Part shown: positions 40,606-51,427 of the stretch, piece by piece
Layout: each line of letters opens with the position of its first letter
How positions within the stretch are numbered: the first letter of the stretch is position 1
Source: Akkermansiaceae bacterium
GTDB taxonomy: Bacteria; Verrucomicrobiota; Verrucomicrobiia; Verrucomicrobiales; Akkermansiaceae
NCBI GenBank assembly: GCA_013041925.1
Contig: JABDRB010000009.1
Coordinates: forward strand, 124,001 to 188,000
Direction: 5' to 3'
Length of the DNA stretch: 64,000 nt
Made by a program: the position numbers and the translations under genes
The notes under the pieces: generated by a model
The model's database searches: none
What the model was told of the DNA's origin: nothing
The model's input: only the letters and a program-made list of their open reading frames with translations

Positions 40606-40691
40606 GGGTAGGTGGCCGAGTGGTTAAAGGCGGCAGACTGTAAATCTGCTCACGTAAGTGTACGAAGGTTCGAATCCTTCCCTGCCCACCA
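40606..40691 (+). tRNA. tRNA-Tyr (GTA)
   Basis: An 86-base cloverleaf with encoded CCA. The acceptor GGGTAGG pairs with CCTGCCC (one G-T pair). The anticodon stem GCAGA/TCTGC encloses CTGTAAA, giving anticodon GTA. A long class II variable arm and the T-loop GGTTCGAATCC are present, as expected for bacterial tRNA-Tyr. It lies at the junction between chromosomal and AT-rich accessory DNA. Confidence 0.97.
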
Positions 40692-40859: not shown

Positions 40860-40874
40860 TTAACTGTGCTGCAT
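40860..40874. repeat. 15-bp direct repeat, left copy
   Basis: TTAACTGTGCTGCAT, identical to 42820-42834. Together the copies flank the repeat-protein gene at 40988-42763. Confidence 0.7.
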
Positions 40875-40987
40875 GTGATATGCAAGGAAGAGTAACGATT
40901 ACAGGAGACAATTAACCTTGTATTCAATTCAAAGCTCTGTTCGTATGCAGTAGATAATAAATTGGATTGCTCCCTAGTTGGAAATAT

Positions 40988-42763
40988 ATGGAGAAGTTCC
41001 ACATTCAAATTAAAGTTATGGGGAGAATATTTATAGTTGCGGTGCTATTTTCAATTTTTAGTTCTGCGGTTTTTGCTCAGAATAATTTTTCTATGGGATC
41101 TGCCAAAGGAGATGTCCTGAAAATTATGGGGAAACCTGACAAAGTTAATCGCTATGAAGCACTTGGCTATGAGTCGTGGAAATACGGGTGGAGCACGGTC
41201 AAAATTTCAACACGTAATGACCGGGTGCTAGAATGGCAGAACAAAGGCAATCTCAAGGTTAGTTTTGCGGCAGGAAGAAACATCACCCAAGCAACTCGGT
41301 ATACTCGAGGATCGCATAAGGATGACGTATTGCGGCTACAGGGAACCCCTGACGGCATAAACCGTTATGAGGCACTTGGCTATGAGTCATGGAAATACGG
41401 GTGGAGCACGGTCAAAATTTCGACACGTAATGAGCGGGTGCTGGAGTGGCAGAACAAAGGCAATCTCAAGGTTAGTCTAACGGCAGGTAAAAATATTACC
41501 CAGGCAACGTATTATACGCGAGGATCGCACAAGGATGACGTACTGAGGCTACAAGGGACCCCTGAGAATATTAATCGCTATAAGGCACTTGGCTATGAGT
41601 CATGGAAATACGGGTGGAGCACGGTCAAAATTTCGACACGTAATGACAGGGTGCTAGAGTGGCAGAATCAAGGCAATCTTAAGGTTCGTCTAGCGGCAGG
41701 AAGAAACATTACCCAAGCAACTCGGTATACTCGAGGATCGCATAAGGACGATGTGTTGAGGCTACAGGGGACCCCTGGCAATATCAACCGCTATGAAGCG
41801 CTTGGCTATGAATCGTGGAAATACGGGTGGAGCACGGTCAAAATTTCAACACGTAATGACCGAGTGCTGGAGTGGCAGAACAAAGGCAATCTGAAGGTTG
41901 GTTTTGCGGCAGGAAGAAACATCACCCAGGCAATTCAGTATACGCATGGTTCGCACAAGGATGATGTACTGCGGTTACAAGGAACTCCCGATGGCATTAA
42001 TCGCTATAAAGCTCTAGGTTACGAAACTTGGACATACGGCAATAGCAGAGTGAAAATTTCTATTCTTTCAGCCAAAGTTCTAGACTATGCCGACAATGGT
42101 ACATTGAAGGTGAAGCCGATGAAGAGCCTACCGAAAAGACTCAGTAAATATCATCACAAGCATAGAGGGATGACTTTGTATTATGATGAAAACAAGACAT
42201 ATACTGGAGTGGTTTCATTTGATGACAAAAATCTTGGGAAGGTTTACGGTATGTCTGAGAGAGGTGTGATGTATTTTTATGACAAAAAATTTAAGCCTCT
42301 TAATTTGTGTGCATACTCGAACGGGAAATCTATAAAGGTTTCATCGGTAAGGGGCGCCTATGATCCTTCACTGTATAAATACATAAATTCGGCTATCTCA
42401 AGCATTAATATTTCCGGTGATATTACAGCATCTGGAACAACAATGCGTTTGGGGAATATGACATTTACTGATTTAGTTACAGATAATGGTTCCTATGTTC
42501 ATGGGACATCGATAGATTTTGGTAATTTAAAGTTTGATGATTACTATTCAGGCAACGGAGTTACAACCTCCGGAAGCAGAATAAATATAGGTAATATTTC
42601 ATTTGGGGATTGGTCGTCCTCGGATGGTAGTAGTGTATCAGGCTCAAGCCAAAGGCTGGGTAACTTTATATATCACGATTATACTGGTTCTGACGGTAAA
42701 ATCTACAGCGGAACCACAATGGAAATTGGGGGGTTTTCGTATACTGATGTGTATGGCTGGTGA
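40988..42763 (+). CDS. Secreted repeat protein with BamE/SmpA-like units
   Basis: A protein of 591 residues with a signal peptide (MEKFHIQIK onward, cleaved near VFAQN, about residue 31). Five units of 71 residues follow, each with GSHKDDVLRLQGTP, GYESWKYGWSTVKIS and RVLEWQNKGNLKV. The KDDVLRLQGTP pattern recalls SmpA/OmlA (BamE)-like domains. From about 480, four shorter Gly/Ser/Thr-rich repeats (MRLGNMTFTD, IDFGNLKFDD, INIGNISFGD, MEIGGFSYTD) are likely a beta-solenoid. The frame is open to a TTG at 40967; ATG 40988 gives the proper signal peptide. The gene is AT-rich relative to the chromosome and sits between 15-bp direct repeats, so it is probably acquired. Confidence 0.72.
   Translation: MEKFHIQIKVMGRIFIVAVLFSIFSSAVFAQNNFSMGSAKGDVLKIMGKPDKVNRYEALGYESWKYGWSTVKISTRNDRVLEWQNKGNLKVSFAAGRNITQATRYTRGSHKDDVLRLQGTPDGINRYEALGYESWKYGWSTVKISTRNERVLEWQNKGNLKVSLTAGKNITQATYYTRGSHKDDVLRLQGTPENINRYKALGYESWKYGWSTVKISTRNDRVLEWQNQGNLKVRLAAGRNITQATRYTRGSHKDDVLRLQGTPGNINRYEALGYESWKYGWSTVKISTRNDRVLEWQNKGNLKVGFAAGRNITQAIQYTHGSHKDDVLRLQGTPDGINRYKALGYETWTYGNSRVKISILSAKVLDYADNGTLKVKPMKSLPKRLSKYHHKHRGMTLYYDENKTYTGVVSFDDKNLGKVYGMSERGVMYFYDKKFKPLNLCAYSNGKSIKVSSVRGAYDPSLYKYINSAISSINISGDITASGTTMRLGNMTFTDLVTDNGSYVHGTSIDFGNLKFDDYYSGNGVTTSGSRINIGNISFGDWSSSDGSSVSGSSQRLGNFIYHDYTGSDGKIYSGTTMEIGGFSYTDVYGW
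41086..42100 (+). repeat. 213-bp coding repeats in the secreted repeat protein
   Basis: Five consecutive units with a period of 213 bases (71 codons). Units 2-4 are nearly identical at DNA level, including TATGAGTCATGGAAATACGG and its variants; the first and last are more diverged. Recent internal duplication or gene conversion is implied. Confidence 0.85.
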
Positions 42764-42899: not shown

Positions 42900-43091
42900 T
42901 TAAATTCCGTGCTCGATAATCTGGTCGATATCGTGTTCACGGAATCTTACCGAGCCGCGCAGGAAGACTTTTTCGAGCACTCCCTCGGCGACCATCCGAT
43001 CCACCGTGCGGGTGGATACGGACAGCCGTTGAGCTGTCATTTGTTTGGTGATCAGCCGTTGATGAGTTTGTCTTGGAGGTTCTTGGTTCAT
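42900..43091 (-). CDS. Excisionase-like helix-turn-helix protein
   Basis: A 63-residue protein with the layout of MerR-like/Xis DNA-binding domains (HTH_17): LITKQMTAQRLSVSTRTVDR as helix-turn-helix, then VFLRGSVRFREHDIDQII, the wing and closing helix. Such proteins bend DNA at attachment sites or act as small regulators. The frame is open to 43193, but that region overlaps the next gene and ATG 43091 (MNQEPPRQ) fits the family. In a circular form of the element it could lie near the integrase gene, which would suit an excision role (inference). Confidence 0.75.
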   Translation of the reverse strand: MNQEPPRQTHQRLITKQMTAQRLSVSTRTVDRMVAEGVLEKVFLRGSVRFREHDIDQIIEHGI

Positions 43092-43143
43092 ACTTTGAGT
43101 CGTGTGAGTGGGGTTTAATTTGTGAGGGTGATGTGGAGCTATT

Positions 43144-43506
43144 CTAAGCTCCGCCAATATCTGAATAGGCATCGAGTGACTCAATACCTTCAATCATGGG
43201 ACCGATATCGCCGCAATTGACGCAGCTTGCCCAGGTGCCGTCAGGTCGCTCATGTGATTGGCCGAAGCAGTGGAGGGTGTTGCAGTCATTGCAAAGGAAG
43301 ATTGTCTTCGAGGCGCAATAAGGGCATCCGGGGTAGACGCTTGATGTGGAGATACCTCCACGGATAATGTCGGGGCCGTATCCAACGATGTTTCGGTTTT
43401 CAGGGGCAGCAAGGGAGCTGTATCCTTCCCATTCAGTTGAGTTCTTTTTCCGGAACATCAATCCGAACGGCCTTCTGTGAAGTGAGCAATAAGTTTTAAC
43501 GATCAT
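43144..43506 (-). CDS. Zinc-ribbon protein resembling the TerY-C metal-binding domain
   Basis: A 120-residue protein with C61-x-x-C64, C72-x-x-C75, C80 and C95-x-x-C98 (CPYC, CNDC, LHC, CVNC), the spacing of the TerY-C zinc domain found with tellurite-type VWA proteins. The N-terminal 55 residues (RPFGLMFRKKNSTEWEGYSS) show no known domain. It is divergent from the sigma factor gene, and a VWA gene lies 2 kb away, so a functional link with that operon is possible. The assignment rests on cysteine spacing only. Confidence 0.55.
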   Translation of the reverse strand: MIVKTYCSLHRRPFGLMFRKKNSTEWEGYSSLAAPENRNIVGYGPDIIRGGISTSSVYPGCPYCASKTIFLCNDCNTLHCFGQSHERPDGTWASCVNCGDIGPMIEGIESLDAYSDIGGA

Positions 43507-43710: not shown

Positions 43711-44442
43711 ATGAACATGAAATTTGTAGAAAAAAATAACCGAAAGAGGAATCACCATAGTAGGAAGGAAGCAAAAATTGTTGAGGCGAAGGCTAAACAT
43801 GAGAACTACCTCCTCAACTTTGCACGTAGTTTAACGTCAAATAATAAGGTTCAAGCTGAAGATGTTGTTCAATTAGTATGGGTGAATCTTTTGAATAATC
43901 CTAAAGGGGCCGACTACCTAGATTTACCCTGCTTGATTAATAACGTTAGATGGCGATTTGGTGACCTGCAAAGGAGGGAGGGAAAATATGTAGAATACAA
44001 GGAAGGGGTAAACAATGACTCGTGCCCCACTTATGAGCAGCATTCCAGTCCGAAAATTTATGGTGAACACCATAGTGAGCAGGAACAAAAAAATAATTTT
44101 TGGGAGATGTTCCCAACTATTGAGTTAACGGAAAAACAGAAGGAAGTTGTTTGGTTGAGGATTTATCATAAATACTCATTTAAACAAATCTCAGACATAG
44201 CAGGAATACCTAAGGCTACGGCTCATGATTGGATCATATTTTGTCGAAAGCAATTTGTGACTGCACGTAGTAGAAATCCCCAATATTTCAGTTTGATCTT
44301 GGGTGGAACTCAAAACGGTGACGCGATTCGTAAATTGGAGTTGAGTTATAGCAATGGTAAATACGCAGCAAATTTATTTAACAAGTTAGATCTATACTTT
44401 TGGATTATCAGGCAGCGAGTGCGTCAATTATTTTCACGTTAA
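43711..44442 (+). CDS. Sigma-70-family (ECF-like) RNA polymerase sigma factor
   Basis: A 243-residue protein. Region 2 at about 30-90 includes QAEDVVQLVWVNLL (49-62), the core-binding/-10 recognition helix pattern. Region 4 at about 138-182 includes LTEKQKEVVWLRIYHKYSFK and the HTH QISDIAGIPKATAHDWI. About 60 extra C-terminal residues (LSYSNGKYAANLFNKLDLYF) are unusual for ECF factors. No anti-sigma gene is adjacent. It may direct transcription of the operon that starts 130 bases downstream (inference). AT-rich, with no clear ribosome binding site. Confidence 0.8.
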   Translation: MNMKFVEKNNRKRNHHSRKEAKIVEAKAKHENYLLNFARSLTSNNKVQAEDVVQLVWVNLLNNPKGADYLDLPCLINNVRWRFGDLQRREGKYVEYKEGVNNDSCPTYEQHSSPKIYGEHHSEQEQKNNFWEMFPTIELTEKQKEVVWLRIYHKYSFKQISDIAGIPKATAHDWIIFCRKQFVTARSRNPQYFSLILGGTQNGDAIRKLELSYSNGKYAANLFNKLDLYFWIIRQRVRQLFSR

Positions 44443-44477: not shown

Positions 44478-44514
44478 AAATCCCCTCACCCTAATCCGGT
44501 GAGGGGATTTTTTT
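44478..44514 (+). terminator. Rho-independent terminator of the sigma factor gene
   Basis: AAATCCCCTCACC pairs with GGTGAGGGGATTT around CTAATCC, running into a T-tract. One of the strongest terminators in the window; it separates the sigma gene from the operon that follows. Confidence 0.93.
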
Positions 44515-44571: not shown

Positions 44572-45516
44572 ATGGTTACACTATCTACATTTTCCTATAA
44601 CCTCCTTCTATGCCTTTGGTTGGCATTTGGAGTTTACATGCTCGCAGGCGATCTCATCCGAGGGGTTGTGTATTACTTCGGTAAAGGAGATGGTGTCATG
44701 GGAAGGTTTGGTAACTTCATCGAACTCTCCACCCAGAGAGGCAGTTTGGTTCGAGAGCTTGATCAATACGCCATGGACACAGGATTACGTCCCGACACGA
44801 TGAAAGTCTACATTATGCTTTTGGGTGTGTTGTGGATCTACGTAACAGCTGCCGTGTTGGGAATCTTTGGAATAGAAATCGACCCGCCATACCAGACATT
44901 TTGCTCAATATTACTCGCCATCGGCCTTGGCTGCATCATCGAGCAAGGGAAGGTTAAGTATGTAAAAAAGGCGGATCGTGAAATTAAGCAACGGCTTACG
45001 GATTCAGAAAAGGAATTCATCAATCTTTCCCAGGTATTTGGTGATCTCAGTGGAGCCTATTACAATACCGGACAAGAAATCAAAGGGTATAAAGCGACAG
45101 GTCTGCTCTCGGGGACTATTTATGAGAATCGACTCAAGCGAGTTCATGATAACTTCAACCTGCTAGATAATGGTTTTCGATATGGCATGTGGAACGCCTT
45201 GAATGGCGCGTTTTCCAGCATTGAAGATACCCTCAAAACTATTCGCGAGGATGCTAAAGAAGAGGTTGAGAAAACTGTAATTGAACAAGCTATCGAAACC
45301 GAAGAGGGAGCCCACGATATCTTGGAGACGGGAGTTGATATTTTGAGGGATAGCGTAAAGGCGAAAAAGGAACGAGCTAAGAAGCAATTCAAAAAAATGG
45401 CGAAGCTCTATCACGAGGACAGTCACCCGAATGCGACTCAAGATGAAATCGATGAACTGAATAAGAAGTTTAACATTATTAGTCGTGCCCACAATCACCT
45501 CAAATCCATTTACTAA
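44572..45516 (+). CDS. Membrane protein with a degenerate J-domain-like tail
   Basis: A 314-residue protein with membrane segments at about 9-27, 79-100 and 108-124, then a charged helical region (about 130-265). The last 45 residues, FKKMAKLYHEDSHPNATQDE then FNIISRAHNHLKS, follow the J-domain helix II-loop-helix III layout. The HPD tripeptide that stimulates Hsp70 is HED here (281-283), so Hsp70 activation may be altered or lost. First gene of a tight five-gene operon; the VWA gene follows after 25 bases. An AAAGGAGGA at about 44541 is too far upstream to serve this ATG well. Confidence 0.65.
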   Translation: MVTLSTFSYNLLLCLWLAFGVYMLAGDLIRGVVYYFGKGDGVMGRFGNFIELSTQRGSLVRELDQYAMDTGLRPDTMKVYIMLLGVLWIYVTAAVLGIFGIEIDPPYQTFCSILLAIGLGCIIEQGKVKYVKKADREIKQRLTDSEKEFINLSQVFGDLSGAYYNTGQEIKGYKATGLLSGTIYENRLKRVHDNFNLLDNGFRYGMWNALNGAFSSIEDTLKTIREDAKEEVEKTVIEQAIETEEGAHDILETGVDILRDSVKAKKERAKKQFKKMAKLYHEDSHPNATQDEIDELNKKFNIISRAHNHLKSIY

Positions 45517-45541
45517 CAAACAACAAAACAACTCAAAAATT

Positions 45542-46165
45542 ATGTTTAAAATTAAAAAATACCAACCCAAGAAAGAAGAAACAGCCCTGAATCAGTTACG
45601 CAATGTGCAGGAGAAAAGCCGTCCAGCCAGCCTGATGACCAACGCCGGAAACAATGTCTATCTGGTGATCGACATGTCCATTTCGATGGAAGGGGAAAAG
45701 TTCCTTTTGGCGAAATCCGGTGCCATGGAATTTTCTAGGGATGCCATTAGAAAAGGATGGAAAGTGGGGCTGATCGCCTTTCATGACTCAGCTGACATGA
45801 TGTGTGCGCTGACTACTAACGAGTCAAGGCTCGATAGTGCCGTCTCAAAGCTACAAGTCCGAGGATCGACAAACATGTCGGCGGGCTTGGATTGTGCAAC
45901 TCAGCATCTCAGACAGGAAAGGGGGAGGCGTTATATCGTCCTCGTTACGGATGGATGGGCAAATGATCCGACGGATGCCCTGAGACTAGGTGACATCGCT
46001 AAGAGAGAGGGAATCGAAATCATCACGCTCGGCACGCCAGATGCCTTGGAAGAGTTTCTTAAACAGCTCGCATCGAGTGATCAACTCTCATCCATTGTGA
46101 AGGATGAACAATTACAAATCGGCATGACTGAAGTTGCCGGACTCCTCCCATGCCATGAACATTAA
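45542..46165 (+). CDS. TerY-like VWA domain protein
   Basis: A 207-residue protein made essentially of one von Willebrand A domain with a complete metal site: DMSIS (44-48), T110 in GSTNMS, and D137 in VLVTDGWAND. The short stand-alone form resembles TerY/YegL-type VWA proteins, which work as interaction hubs with kinases, phosphatases or metal-binding partners. The frame is open to 45485, but ATG 45542 (MFKIKKYQPK) avoids overlap with the J-like gene. Its 3' end overlaps the next gene by 11 bases. Cytoplasmic; no signal peptide. Confidence 0.85.
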   Translation: MFKIKKYQPKKEETALNQLRNVQEKSRPASLMTNAGNNVYLVIDMSISMEGEKFLLAKSGAMEFSRDAIRKGWKVGLIAFHDSADMMCALTTNESRLDSAVSKLQVRGSTNMSAGLDCATQHLRQERGRRYIVLVTDGWANDPTDALRLGDIAKREGIEIITLGTPDALEEFLKQLASSDQLSSIVKDEQLQIGMTEVAGLLPCHEH

Positions 46166-46814
46166 ACCGATATTACTCAGAATTCTGGGATGGGCTGTCT
46201 TTTTCTCGTTTTTCTTGCTGATCTTTCCTCCCTTCAAACGAGGGAAGAGCGGTGGAACTAACGGGGAGAAACATCCCATGTCAGAAACTTACGTTGATTC
46301 ATTTCCTGAAAAACAGGTTGTCAAAAATAAACCTGTTTCCGAAAGAGAGAAGAACCAAAGGAATCGCTTTGAAGCAAAACCACAGATCAAACCTGCACCT
46401 CGGGCATTTGTCAAAGTGCCGCCTAAAGCGATTGTTGTCCCAGAAGATCCTGTTCCGAGTGCTGTTGCTAAAAAGAAAACCCGTCAGGTGTCGAGGCGGA
46501 TTGTTTCGAGCAAGAAATCCACTCCTCATTCAACGCGCCAGAAGCAAACCTCCGAACAACTCAAGGTTAAGATTACGCCTGTAAAGCGTAAGGCATCCAT
46601 TCGCTATTATAGGCTCAAAAAACAGTTCCATGGAAAGCTCGTTCGTCTCAGGCGTTGGGCGAGCCCTAGAGCCTTCTGGGGGGCGGAAATTCATGATTAC
46701 GAAGATCTCATTCTGAGTGCCCAACGGTGGCATCACGGCACCGGAACTTTATGGATTAAAGTCACCAGAAAAAACGGTCGAAGCGGCTGGTTGCCGTATG
46801 GCTACATTAACTAA
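46155..46814 (+). CDS. Single-pass membrane protein with an SH3-like tail
   Basis: A 219-residue protein with one N-terminal membrane segment (about 5-24, LLRILGWAVFFSFFLLIFPP). A long basic, Lys/Arg/Pro-rich low-complexity region (about 30-150) precedes the C-terminal 35 residues, GTLWIKVTRKNGRSGWLPYG, which look like a bacterial SH3-like fold that may contact cell wall or partners. The start overlaps the end of the VWA gene by 11 bases. No known family. Confidence 0.65.
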   Translation: MNIKPILLRILGWAVFFSFFLLIFPPFKRGKSGGTNGEKHPMSETYVDSFPEKQVVKNKPVSEREKNQRNRFEAKPQIKPAPRAFVKVPPKAIVVPEDPVPSAVAKKKTRQVSRRIVSSKKSTPHSTRQKQTSEQLKVKITPVKRKASIRYYRLKKQFHGKLVRLRRWASPRAFWGAEIHDYEDLILSAQRWHHGTGTLWIKVTRKNGRSGWLPYGYIN

Positions 46815-46831
46815 CAAAACGAAAGCAAATT

Positions 46832-47437
46832 ATGAACAATATCAAAACATACATCAAAAAATCCATGTGGGGGTGGCTCATCATCCCCGTAAATCTCGCT
46901 CTCTTCGGCATGAATTCGTCATTTCTTGTGGGAGGCATCGCTGAAGAACAGCGAATGGTCCCGTGGCTTGGCAGTCTGATCCTGATACTCGGGGCCGTAT
47001 CGTTTTGGATGATCCTTCCTGCATCAGAGGACAAATGGAGGAAGGGGATACATGTCGCCGCAGGTTCGCTAGCTCTCAAGTACCTTGTGTTCTTTGTTCC
47101 GATACATCCAGTGTTCCTGGCTTGGACTGAGGTGCATGGGCTCTTATGGGCGGTGAACATTATCATGCTGGCGACCACGATGCCTTTGATCATAGGACTA
47201 GGCATTCTTTGTATGGATGCCGGGCGAGGACTTAGGATTTCAGGTGCTTTGCTCTGCATCGCTGGGATTGCCGCATGGGTGGTACACGTAGTCATTTTCA
47301 AAGACGGCATGGTCTACGCAGCCTTCATCAGTAATGGAGATGGGTTTGCCATCTATGCCATGAACTACGCACACAGCATAATTTTGGGAGGGTTTCTCCT
47401 GCTCGGATTGCCGAGGGTAAACAAACACAATCAATAA
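46832..47437 (+). CDS. Six-helix membrane protein, unknown function
   Basis: A 201-residue protein with hydrophobic segments at about 13-33, 44-63, 76-96, 105-127, 136-155 and 172-193 and short loops, consistent with six transmembrane helices. Histidines occur in helix-flanking positions (IHPVF, EVHGLL, VVHVV), but no haem or metal motif can be asserted. Fourth gene of the operon, 17 bases behind the SH3-tailed gene. Confidence 0.7.
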   Translation: MNNIKTYIKKSMWGWLIIPVNLALFGMNSSFLVGGIAEEQRMVPWLGSLILILGAVSFWMILPASEDKWRKGIHVAAGSLALKYLVFFVPIHPVFLAWTEVHGLLWAVNIIMLATTMPLIIGLGILCMDAGRGLRISGALLCIAGIAAWVVHVVIFKDGMVYAAFISNGDGFAIYAMNYAHSIILGGFLLLGLPRVNKHNQ

Positions 47438-47479
47438 TGATAGAACTAACAAAAAACGAATATGACCAAGGAGCAAATT

Positions 47480-47785
47480 ATGAAAGGAGAAATTGATTGG
47501 GATGAAATTGTTATCCCAGGTGATGAGGATTGCCCACCGCTAACTCAGAGAGACTGTAGGGATCTTTTTTGGGATTCCTTTAAGCGGCTTGAAAACGTGA
47601 CAGAGCAACAGATGGAAGCGTATTGGCTGGATTCGCAGTTTGACCTTACTGAGAAGGAAATCGGTGAAAAATTGGGAGTAAGCGAACAGGTGGCTATTGA
47701 TTGGATCAAGCATAGCAGAGATGAAACATTACGTCTTCAGGGAGAGCGATGGGCTAGTTATGGAGATGATGATATTCCCTTTTAA
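47480..47785 (+). CDS. Small HTH protein, sigma-region-4-like
   Basis: A 101-residue acidic protein whose C-terminal half, LTEKEIGEKLGVSEQVAIDW then IKHSRDETL, is a helix-turn-helix like sigma region 4 and similar to the HTH of the sigma factor encoded upstream (both have A-x-DWI). The start is decided by AAGGAG at 47468-47473, spaced six bases from ATG 47480; the ATG at 47462 lies before this site. Last gene of the operon. It may compete with or tune the sigma factor (inference). Confidence 0.65.
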   Translation: MKGEIDWDEIVIPGDEDCPPLTQRDCRDLFWDSFKRLENVTEQQMEAYWLDSQFDLTEKEIGEKLGVSEQVAIDWIKHSRDETLRLQGERWASYGDDDIPF

Positions 47786-48351
47786 GAGTATCTGGAGGGG
47801 AAAAGCCTTTCCCCTGGCCGGAGCTTGTAAAATCTCCGGCGCACCCTATTCGAGCGGGGACACCCCGCAACGCCCAGTCATTCGAATTCATTAGCGAGCT
47901 GCCAAGCTGACACTTGGCAGCCCGTTTTATTTTAGCGGACGAACCAGTTTGAACGAACCAGCTTGTTTGGCTCCGCACCACACCCTCATTCCCGAAAGGA
48001 CACGCTCCTGCATTTCACCTGCGATTTGCCCCACGCGCGTTCCGCGCCGGGGGCAATTCCTCCGGCTCCATTTTGTCGCTTTGCCTTCCGGCATTTCCGG
48101 TCGCCCCTTTTTGACTGACCACCGCAGCACTCCACTGCGTTCGAGTGTTGCCGTGGCCTTCGATCTGTTTTTAAGGGGGCTCTGCCCCCTCGTGGTCAAG
48201 GGTGTCCCCGCCCTTCCGCACGCCGCTGCGCTTTGTTTGTGCAGGGCGGGTGATCCCCCTCCCTATGACCTCATACCCCCACTCTCGCCGAGAGCAAGGT
48301 TTCATGCGCGGGCCTGAAGCCTGTGGCTCATTAAAGAAAGAGAGAAAAACT
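47786..48351. other. Hairpin-rich non-coding block upstream of ardA
   Basis: 566 bases, GC-richer than the flanking genes. Perfect stem-loops occur at 47796-47815 (AGGGGAAA/TTTCCCCT), 47817-47840 (GCCGGAG/CTCCGGC), 47854-47868 (GCGGGG/CCCCGC), 47898-47921 (terminator) and 48174-48190 (AGGGGGC/GCCCCCT). A 122-codon frame exists at 47949-48317, but its composition does not look like protein. Candidate single-strand promoter or replication-signal region. Confidence 0.6.
47898..47933 (+). terminator. Terminator of the five-gene operon
   Basis: GCTGCCAAG (47898-47906) pairs perfectly with CTTGGCAGC (47913-47921), followed by CCGTTTTATTTT. Confidence 0.85.
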
Positions 48352-48882
48352 ATGAAGAATACACCAAAAATATATGTCGCTTGCCTTGCTAGTTATAACG
48401 CTGGAATCTTGCACGGGGAATGGGTCGATTTGTTCGACTGTGATGACCTGAATGAGAGCGTTCAAAAGATGCTTAAAAAGTCACCTGTTAGCGATGCAGA
48501 GGAATACGCGATCCACGACCACGAATTTTGCGGAGGTCTGAGCGAATACGCCGGACTTGATACCGTGGAGGCTATCAAAGAAGCCTATGAAAAAGCGGAG
48601 AGTGAAAGCGTTGACTGGGATCTGTTTTGTCAATTTTGCGAGCATAAAGGCCATGACATCGAAGCTGATTCAGTTGAGAAATTCAACGAGGCTTATACCG
48701 GGTCTGCTGATACGTTGGTCGATTGGTGCCATGCTTTTCTGGATGATACCGGACAGCTTGAAGCGATTCCCGAAAATCTGCGATACTATTTCGATTACGA
48801 GGCCTTTGCCCGCGATATGGAAATCGGTGATGTGTTCACCATCCGTCATGAGTGTGAAACCCATGTTTTTTGGAATCATTAA
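48352..48882 (+). CDS. ardA: Antirestriction protein, ArdA family
   Basis: A DNA mimic that blocks type I restriction enzymes and protects incoming single-to-double-stranded element DNA. The 176-residue protein is very acidic, as required for DNA mimicry, and opens with KIYVACLASYNAGILHGEWV, the standard ArdA N-terminus. It also has EEYAIHDHEFCGGLSEYAG and the closing YFDYEAFARDMEIGDV. The start ATG follows an AAAGAAAGAGAG purine tract. ArdA is typical of conjugative and mobilizable elements, often in the leading region. Confidence 0.93.
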   Translation: MKNTPKIYVACLASYNAGILHGEWVDLFDCDDLNESVQKMLKKSPVSDAEEYAIHDHEFCGGLSEYAGLDTVEAIKEAYEKAESESVDWDLFCQFCEHKGHDIEADSVEKFNEAYTGSADTLVDWCHAFLDDTGQLEAIPENLRYYFDYEAFARDMEIGDVFTIRHECETHVFWNH

Positions 48883-50074: not shown

Positions 50075-50683
50075 TTGCGAACCAATTACATACTCATCGA
50101 CTATGAAAATGTCCAACCGGGGCTGTTGCCCACGGGTTCAGACATTCCGATCAAAGTCCTCACCTTTATCGGCGAAAGGCAAACCAAGATCCCATTTGAA
50201 TTAGCTTCATCGCTACAAAAACTAGGCAATCAAGCGAGCTATATTAAAATAGATGGTAACGGTCCAGATGCTCTGGATTTTCATATAGCCTACTACGTTG
50301 GCAAGTTAGCAGAGCAGGATTCGAATTCGTACTTTCACATTGTGAGTAAGGACAAAGGATTTGACCCTTTGATTCGCCACCTTAAGAAAAACAAAATTTT
50401 GATTCAGCGTGTCAACAGCCTCTCAGAAATTCTTATCTTGAGTAATTCTAATAACAGCACGTTGGCTCAGAAGGTGACATCAATGGTCGAGTCCTTGAAA
50501 GCTAGGGGGAATTCACGACCAAGGAGGGTTAAAACACTCGAAAATACAATCAACGCCTTTTTTATGAAGAGCCTCAGCGAGGCAGAGGTGAAAAAGATTG
50601 TAGCGCAACTGGCCAAGCAAAAAGTAATTACGCTTACTGATCAGGTCGTAAGCTACAACGCCCCGATCACGGGCAAGGACTAA
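50075..50683 (+). CDS. PIN/NYN-like nuclease domain protein
   Basis: A 202-residue protein starting at a TTG (MRTNYILIDYENVQPG, a start seen in related proteins). The pattern of acidic residues, D9 and E11 in IDYENV, D65/D68 in GPDALDFHIAYYVG, and D93/D97 in VSKDKGFDPLIRHL, matches PIN-like/NYN ribonuclease folds. About 75 C-terminal residues form a helical region of unknown role. The HNH nuclease gene starts three bases after the stop codon, so the two form a couplet. Possible RNase or tRNA-targeting defence component (inference). Confidence 0.75.
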   Translation: MRTNYILIDYENVQPGLLPTGSDIPIKVLTFIGERQTKIPFELASSLQKLGNQASYIKIDGNGPDALDFHIAYYVGKLAEQDSNSYFHIVSKDKGFDPLIRHLKKNKILIQRVNSLSEILILSNSNNSTLAQKVTSMVESLKARGNSRPRRVKTLENTINAFFMKSLSEAEVKKIVAQLAKQKVITLTDQVVSYNAPITGKD

Positions 50684-50686
50684 CAA

Positions 50687-51427
50687 TTGCTCGATATGAA
50701 AATTGAGAACGAAGCTGTTCGTCAAGTCTATGCACTCTGCCGGGAGATGCATCGAGGTCGTATCACAAGGGGTGATCTGATGACAAAAGTTGAGGAACAA
50801 CAGCTAATGGCAGTCGGATCAGCTGGAAACTACGCGCAGAATTTTAAGTATATGATGCAGGGTGTGGGCTACAATAGGGCCATGAATCTATATTCAACTG
50901 ATTATTTTCTTCGCAATATCAGAAATGACTATGGGCAGCTATCTTTTGAAAAGGCTCTTCATGCAGCAAATGAGCACGTCGAGTATTATGATTCATTAGG
51001 GAAGGGGCGACAGGTATCTACCCGCGAGTTGCTTAAAAAACTAGATAAGGAATTTCAGTCGGAAAGCTTTTGGTATCCTGATGAGATCCCAGATGATGAG
51101 GACACCGACCATAGAGAGGGAAAAGCAAAGCAAGTTTTAGTGAATATTTACGAGCGTAATAGTAAAGCTCGCCTTGAGTGCATCGAGGAATATGGCTACG
51201 ATTGCGCTGTGTGCTCGTTTAACTTCGAGTCGTTTTATGGGACTCTTGGCTCTGGATTTATTCATGTCCATCACCTGGTCGATATAGCTACAACTGACCG
51301 AGAGTATACAGTTGATCCTATCAAAGACCTTCGCCCTGTATGCCCTAACTGCCACGCTATGTTGCATAAAGAAAAGCCCGCTATGTCGATTGAAAAACTT
51401 AAAAGTATCATTGCCGAGCAAAACTAG
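50687..51427 (+). CDS. HNH endonuclease with an N-terminal helical domain
   Basis: A 246-residue protein. A helical N-terminal region (about 1-110) precedes a C-terminal HNH domain with C173-x-x-C176, FIHVHHLVDIA (191-201) and the second zinc pair VCPNCHAMLH (218-227), all intact. The start TTG at 50687 has AAGGA seven bases upstream; the ATG at 50696 is less well placed. HNH proteins of this size often cut DNA in restriction-type defence. It pairs with the PIN-like gene just upstream. Confidence 0.85.
   Translation: MLDMKIENEAVRQVYALCREMHRGRITRGDLMTKVEEQQLMAVGSAGNYAQNFKYMMQGVGYNRAMNLYSTDYFLRNIRNDYGQLSFEKALHAANEHVEYYDSLGKGRQVSTRELLKKLDKEFQSESFWYPDEIPDDEDTDHREGKAKQVLVNIYERNSKARLECIEEYGYDCAVCSFNFESFYGTLGSGFIHVHHLVDIATTDREYTVDPIKDLRPVCPNCHAMLHKEKPAMSIEKLKSIIAEQN

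Follow-up and report, generated by a model that had tools for sequence, protein, structure and literature searches.

A five-gene operon with a VWA protein on a mobilizable element of an Akkermansiaceae bacterium, and a conserved three-hairpin element beside it

The window analysed here, a 64-kb piece of the 3.28-Mb genome assembly of an Akkermansiaceae bacterium, contains a compact operon of five tightly spaced same-strand genes (P1 to P5) carried by a mobilizable element. The plus-strand open reading frames (ORFs) lie at 44572-45516 (P1), 45542-46165 (P2), 46155-46814 (P3), 46832-47437 (P4) and 47462 or 47480 to 47785 (P5). ORFs of at least 100 amino acids (aa) starting with ATG occupy 98% of 44572-47785 on the plus strand, a coverage that averages 1.2% and reaches at most 16% in 1000 shuffles; the compact operon proposed in an initial annotation of this DNA is therefore real. 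It encodes a VWA protein with a full metal ion-dependent adhesion site (MIDAS), three membrane proteins and a small helix-turn-helix (HTH) protein, and this gene set fits no system known to Pfam, NCBIfam, PADLOC or PHROGs, also as first annotated. We tentatively propose that the products could guard a membrane to the benefit of the element, and we describe a structured non-coding element next to the operon, which may outweigh the operon itself as a discovery.

The operon and its products

The intergenic spacings of 25 (P1/P2), -11 (P2/P3) and 17 nucleotides (nt; P3/P4) are exactly those initially given; the fourth, about 42 nt, holds if P5 starts at the ATG at 47480, eight bases 5' of which stands AAGGAG, and shrinks to 24 nt with the ATG at 47462. 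This tight layout argues for one transcription unit and hence for probable co-expression, as had been suggested. The perfect terminator said to end the operon does exist as a perfect 9-bp terminator-like stem followed by the T-rich CCGTTTTATTTT (47898-47921, plus strand), but its assignment to the operon is less secure: the stem lies 112 nt 3' of the last operon stop with other hairpins in between, and terminator-like sites are not enriched in the region (5 versus 5.0 in shuffles). Because the three-hairpin element described below intervenes after the operon, this terminator may be part of the leader of the downstream ardA gene rather than of the operon. At the other end, a terminator-like 13-bp hairpin (44478-44510, plus strand) lies between the operon and a sigma-like gene.

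P2 (207 aa) is a soluble protein with a 37-aa N-terminal extension, and its VWA identity is, judging from profile and motifs, certain: it matches PF00092 at E 7.9e-20, and the MIDAS residues D44xS46xS48, T110 and D137 are all present and invariant in an alignment with distant VWAs. The VWA protein of the initial annotation thus stands, whereas the attribute "TerY-like" does not. TerY-P triads combine a TerY VWA with a PP2C and a Ser/Thr kinase-zinc ribbon protein and have been described as metal-sensing phosphorylation switches and also as anti-phage systems (PMC11090510, PMC10889362). The alignment of P2 with the VWA of a triad is limited to two motif-sized fragments, its relatives are only generic Bat/Ca-channel-like VWAs (28-37% identity, within larger proteins), and its tblastn matches on plasmids are mostly generic "VWA domain-containing" entries, none annotated as TerY. 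Likewise, a scan of the element ORFs, which covered all but some short ones, turned up neither a Ser/Thr kinase nor a PP2C. We therefore reject P2 as a TerY-like protein.

P1 (314 aa) carries three transmembrane (TM) helices predicted by hydropathy, at about residues 6-33, 76-104 and 105-128, then a helical cytosolic region and a C-terminal J-like segment. Taken alone, this tail matches the Pfam DnaJ profile at E 2.4e-5 (24.8 bits, gathering score 27.8), and it also aligned with J-domains from the PDB. Its motif YHEDSHP places HED where a J-domain (Hsp40) has HPD. The J-like tail thus appears weak but real, and degenerate: of the "TM/J-like" protein initially described, the membrane part and the resemblance hold, but the match stays below the gathering score and lacks the defining HPD. 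Because HPD is HED, stimulation of an Hsp70 is not expected. Weak matches of P1 to tape-measure proteins in a phage collection were dismissed as coiled-coil similarity.

P3 (219 aa), whose gene shares 11 nt with the end of the P2 gene, has an N-terminal TM helix, a K/R/P-rich linker and an SH3b-like C-terminus. The final 23 residues are similar to SH3_3 (E 0.064, 13.9 versus 27 bits, C-terminal half only), and the tail aligns with Pex13-SH3 at E 0.036. The SH3-tailed membrane protein first annotated is a single-pass protein, and its SH3b-like assignment, lying below the cut-off, is tentative. Similarity to a Sie-like phage family (E 0.099) is confined to the TM helix and was discarded. P4 (201 aa, plus strand) is an integral membrane protein of no family with six predicted helices, of which five are clear and the sixth, counted in the initial annotation, is marginal; its lone match, in genome G148 (E 1e-3), falls in a low-complexity reading frame and was judged to be chance.

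P5 (107 aa, or 101 aa from 47480) is acidic and resembles sigma region 4 (Sigma70_r4_2, E 1.3e-4, 22 bits, Pfam cut-off 25.7), which agrees with the small HTH protein initially reported. It aligns over 61 aa at 30% identity (pairwise E 2e-7) with the product of the gene at 43711-44442, its sole other match in its own genome (E 1.5e-4). P5 is, on this evidence, a paralogue of that gene product and looks like a shortened offshoot of the element's sigma-like factor. The latter (plus strand) is a sigma-70-like factor with regions r2 and r4 (sigma70-ECF, E 9.9e-10), with relatives in other integrated elements of the order: in the sister elements L042 (7551-8117) and L044 (7276-7917) and in 9 other genomes. 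Further such factors lie at L106 (1722-2255), L107 (6624-7229) and L110 (4207-4731). The sigma-like genes of the relatives are followed by a small conserved ORF of about 60-72 aa, and integrases adjoin some of them (L106, L108). Since this small ORF follows and integrases adjoin in several genomes, the sigma-like factor and the ORF are apparently a recurring regulatory pair of mobile elements within this taxonomic order.

The distribution of the operon was searched in samples of species and by pattern scans of limited depth, covering genome_contigs (P1 and P2), viral_contigs (P1-P5), plasmids, phages (P1) and genome samples from the same genus up to the phylum. These samples and collections yielded no homologue of P1, P3, P4 or P5. 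Specifically, P1 has no relative in 98 related genomes, in 388 genomes of the phylum (its own excepted), on plasmids, in genome_contigs or in viral_contigs; P1, P3 and P4 are on none of 72,556 plasmids; P3 and P5 are absent from about 240 genomes of the order each; and P4 has no credible match in 190 genomes. The five-gene set is rare; because the searches were species samples and scans of limited depth, it may occur elsewhere.

The host element and its non-coding DNA

To the right of the operon lie, in addition to ardA (48352-48882, plus strand; PF07275, E 1.2e-32), genes for an HTH protein, a PIN7 protein, an HNH protein, a TraG/VirD4 coupling protein, NikA/MobC, a relaxase and a tyrosine integrase, which bears out the initial view that the operon is carried on a mobilizable element with ardA and nuclease genes. 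On its left the integrated element adjoins a tRNA-Tyr gene (40606-40691). Because synteny with congeners stops at about 40785, just past tRNA-Tyr, and restarts at about 58744, just past the integrase, the element extends over about 40.8-58.7 kb; no tRNA-Tyr repeat of at least 12 bp recurs near the integrase end. Among sister elements, recognised by relatives of the relaxase, L042 and L044 keep the sigma-like gene and TraG and have none of P1-P5, which marks the operon as variable cargo. In genome G010, another species of the same genus, the same tRNA-Tyr is followed by an apparent homologue (by eye) of the excisionase-like HTH gene at 42900-43193, which suggests that the tRNA-Tyr site is used repeatedly.

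The excisionase-like gene lies towards the element's left end and is overlapped by a gene on the minus strand (43144-43506) for a 120-aa, stand-alone TerY-C-like zinc-ribbon protein, about 1 kb upstream of the operon, on the opposite strand to it and about 2 kb from P2. Its match to PF15616 (E 0.011) is below the Pfam cut-off; it can be aligned along 99 aa at 25% identity (pairwise E 4e-11) with a TerY-C protein of Prevotella, itself stand-alone, plasmid-borne and adjoining kinase, VWA and PP2C genes. The zinc-ribbon protein is an unproven candidate member of the operon's system. Elsewhere on the element, the PIN7 and HNH genes adjoin each other (50075-51427), the HNH protein being weakly similar to type IV/II restriction enzymes; the pair is possibly a separate nuclease module. 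The ORF at 40967-42763 encodes a 598-aa protein with near-identical 71-residue repeats (213-nt period); copies of a 15-bp direct repeat, TTAACTGTGCTGCAT, lie on either side of it, at 40860 and 42820.

The non-coding stretch that separates the operon from ardA is unusual: 47786-47935 folds as RNA far better than shuffles (z -5.7). Downstream of the operon it contains a three-hairpin element (47797-47878, plus strand), of which GCGGGGACACCCCGC is part and within which lies a 22-nt core, GCGGGGACACCCCGCAACGCCC (47854-47875, plus strand). Aligned as GCGGGGASACCCCGCAACGCCC, the core is identical in 12 of 12 copies save for a base in the hairpin loop. The three-hairpin element occurs in L048, a sister element of the same family, and on plasmids of Paracoccus, Ketogulonicigenium, Shinella, Phenylobacterium, Caulobacter, Magnetospira, Campylobacter and Granulicella, so that plasmid carriers of the core span Alphaproteobacteria, Campylobacterota and Acidobacteriota. 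The other hairpins are less constant: the sequence of hairpin 1 varies and is an entirely different AT-rich stem in Campylobacter, while hairpin 2 is variable and present in most copies, not all; the RNAalifold consensus retains hairpins 1 and 3 only, with weak covariation. The element is often near the anti-restriction genes ArdC/ArdA, its annotated neighbours being ArdC, a type IV secretion system and a topoisomerase in Campylobacter, ArdC in Ketogulonicigenium and Granulicella, and a toprim protein in Caulobacter; L045 is without it although an ardA homologue is present. Rfam holds no family matching the element, the core sequence appears in none of the papers searched, and viral_contigs gave no exact match to it.

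A second conserved non-coding block, GGGTGTCCCCGCCCTTCCGC, stands ahead of ardA (48176-48302, plus strand) and matches non-coding DNA about 90 nt 5' of ArdC-like genes on proteobacterial plasmids, those of Sedimenticola and Novosphingobium. In the three-hairpin element, a linear consensus scan of the plus strand found no sigma-70 -35/-10 sequences. By analogy with plasmid leading regions, we hypothesize that this element could serve as a single-stranded promoter or priming site.

Possible functions of the operon

The operon could encode a membrane surveillance or protection module that benefits the element, against the entry of phages or competing elements or against envelope stress, a reading that we put forward tentatively. 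P1-P5 would be expressed as a single cargo transcription unit and their products would form a membrane-bound complex, with P1 and P4 as its inner-membrane core. The soluble P2 would use its intact MIDAS to bind either a client or the cytosolic portion of P1; the degenerate tail of P1 would be a helix for docking or interaction and would not activate an Hsp70; and the basic linker and SH3b-like tail of P3 would tie the complex to the envelope. P5, a paralogue reduced to region 4, could modulate the element's sigma-like factor at the operon promoter, and the complex as a whole would monitor, or guard against, a membrane event to the element's benefit. We infer complex formation, topology, regulation and biological role alike from the tight operon, the P2/P3 overlap, the intact MIDAS, the J-like tail, the membrane proteins, the paralogy of P5 with the sigma-like factor and the variable-cargo context.

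Several observations weigh against this model. A promoter scan 5' of P1 recognised none. The J assignment of P1 and the SH3 assignment of P3 are both under their family cut-offs, and single-sequence structure models of P1 (predicted local distance difference test score, pLDDT, 41) and P4 (pLDDT 56) are too poor to confirm a fold. The lack of any non-VWA homologue leaves the conservation of the set as a unit without support. PADLOC has no family for P1-P4 and matches P5 only at E 0.03, and there is no effector in the operon, be it a nuclease, a kinase, an ATPase or another, such that a defence output is not obvious. A bolder version appears quite unlikely to us. In it, the operon would be a membrane system for defence or exclusion, not described before, centred on the VWA protein and controlled by the element's sigma-like factor, and the adjacent cross-phylum GCGGGGASACCCCGCAACGCCC element of plasmid leading regions would represent single-stranded promoters or priming sites of a new class.

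Alternatively, the membrane proteins might form an accessory transfer module that helps the element to exploit a conjugation apparatus already resident in the cell, or that acts in entry or surface exclusion, the operon then being part of the mobilization functions. This would fit with the presence of a coupling protein and with the lack of identified mating-pair genes among the window ORFs scanned, as well as with the position of the operon next to ardA and a non-coding block conserved on conjugative plasmids. However, L042 and L044 lack the operon while keeping TraG and the sigma-like gene, and P1, P3 and P4 are found on 0 of the 72,556 plasmids. A transfer role is unlikely, in our estimate, but comes close to the surveillance model in likelihood. 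A divergent TerY-P-like module for metal or stress signalling, pairing P2 with the zinc-ribbon protein, would account for a VWA and a zinc ribbon 2 kb apart on the same element, the latter being homologous to the stand-alone TerY-C protein beside the kinase-VWA-PP2C set of the Prevotella plasmid. It is nevertheless improbable, given that P2 is related to TerY-type VWAs in motif fragments only, that the element ORFs scanned include no kinase or PP2C, and that the strand opposite the operon carries the zinc-ribbon gene, which forms a pair with the excisionase-like HTH gene.

The operon could also be an orphan, fast-evolving piece of cargo that serves the envelope in a housekeeping-type function such as cell-wall remodelling and has no role in conflict, an explanation that we rate as likely as the surveillance model. 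SH3b-like tails are typical of envelope proteins, and neither a match to a defence family nor conservation was found; on the other hand, a variable mobile-element slot beside ardA, PIN and HNH genes would be more typical of conflict or fitness cargo.

Comparison with known systems

DjlA-like J-domain membrane proteins have an N-terminal TM segment and a C-terminal J segment, an arrangement that the N-terminal TM and J-like tail of P1 recall, but P1 has HED for HPD and no TerB domain was recognised in it. The operon as a whole recalls MoxR-vWA ternary conflict systems, which consist of a MoxR AAA+ protein, a vWA protein and a third component (VMAP, iSTAND, FtsH or beta-propeller) (PMC7159879). 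Both have an intact-MIDAS VWA protein with partners on a variable locus; unlike those systems, the operon lacks a MoxR AAA+, VMAP, iSTAND or FtsH protein, and neither these nor a beta-propeller component were found in the five genes or the scanned neighbours. If it acts as a unit, the operon would extend the accessory functions of mobilizable elements by a VWA module that is membrane-bound and AAA-free. Like TerY-P triads, it places a small VWA protein in an operon of a mobile element, with a TerY-C-like zinc ribbon close by, but P2 is not of the TerY type, neither kinase nor PP2C was found among the ORFs scanned, and three membrane proteins stand in the operon instead.

The three-hairpin element is best compared with Frpo/ssi, the single-stranded promoters of plasmid leading regions (PMC11541004). 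Like these, it is structured non-coding DNA ahead of anti-restriction genes on conjugative elements; unlike these, it has another sequence, built on the conserved GCGGGGASACCCCGCAACGCCC core. A cross-phylum core and a three-hairpin layout, shared by a chromosomal mobilizable element and conjugative plasmids, would point to a broad leading-region control signal outside the Frpo family.

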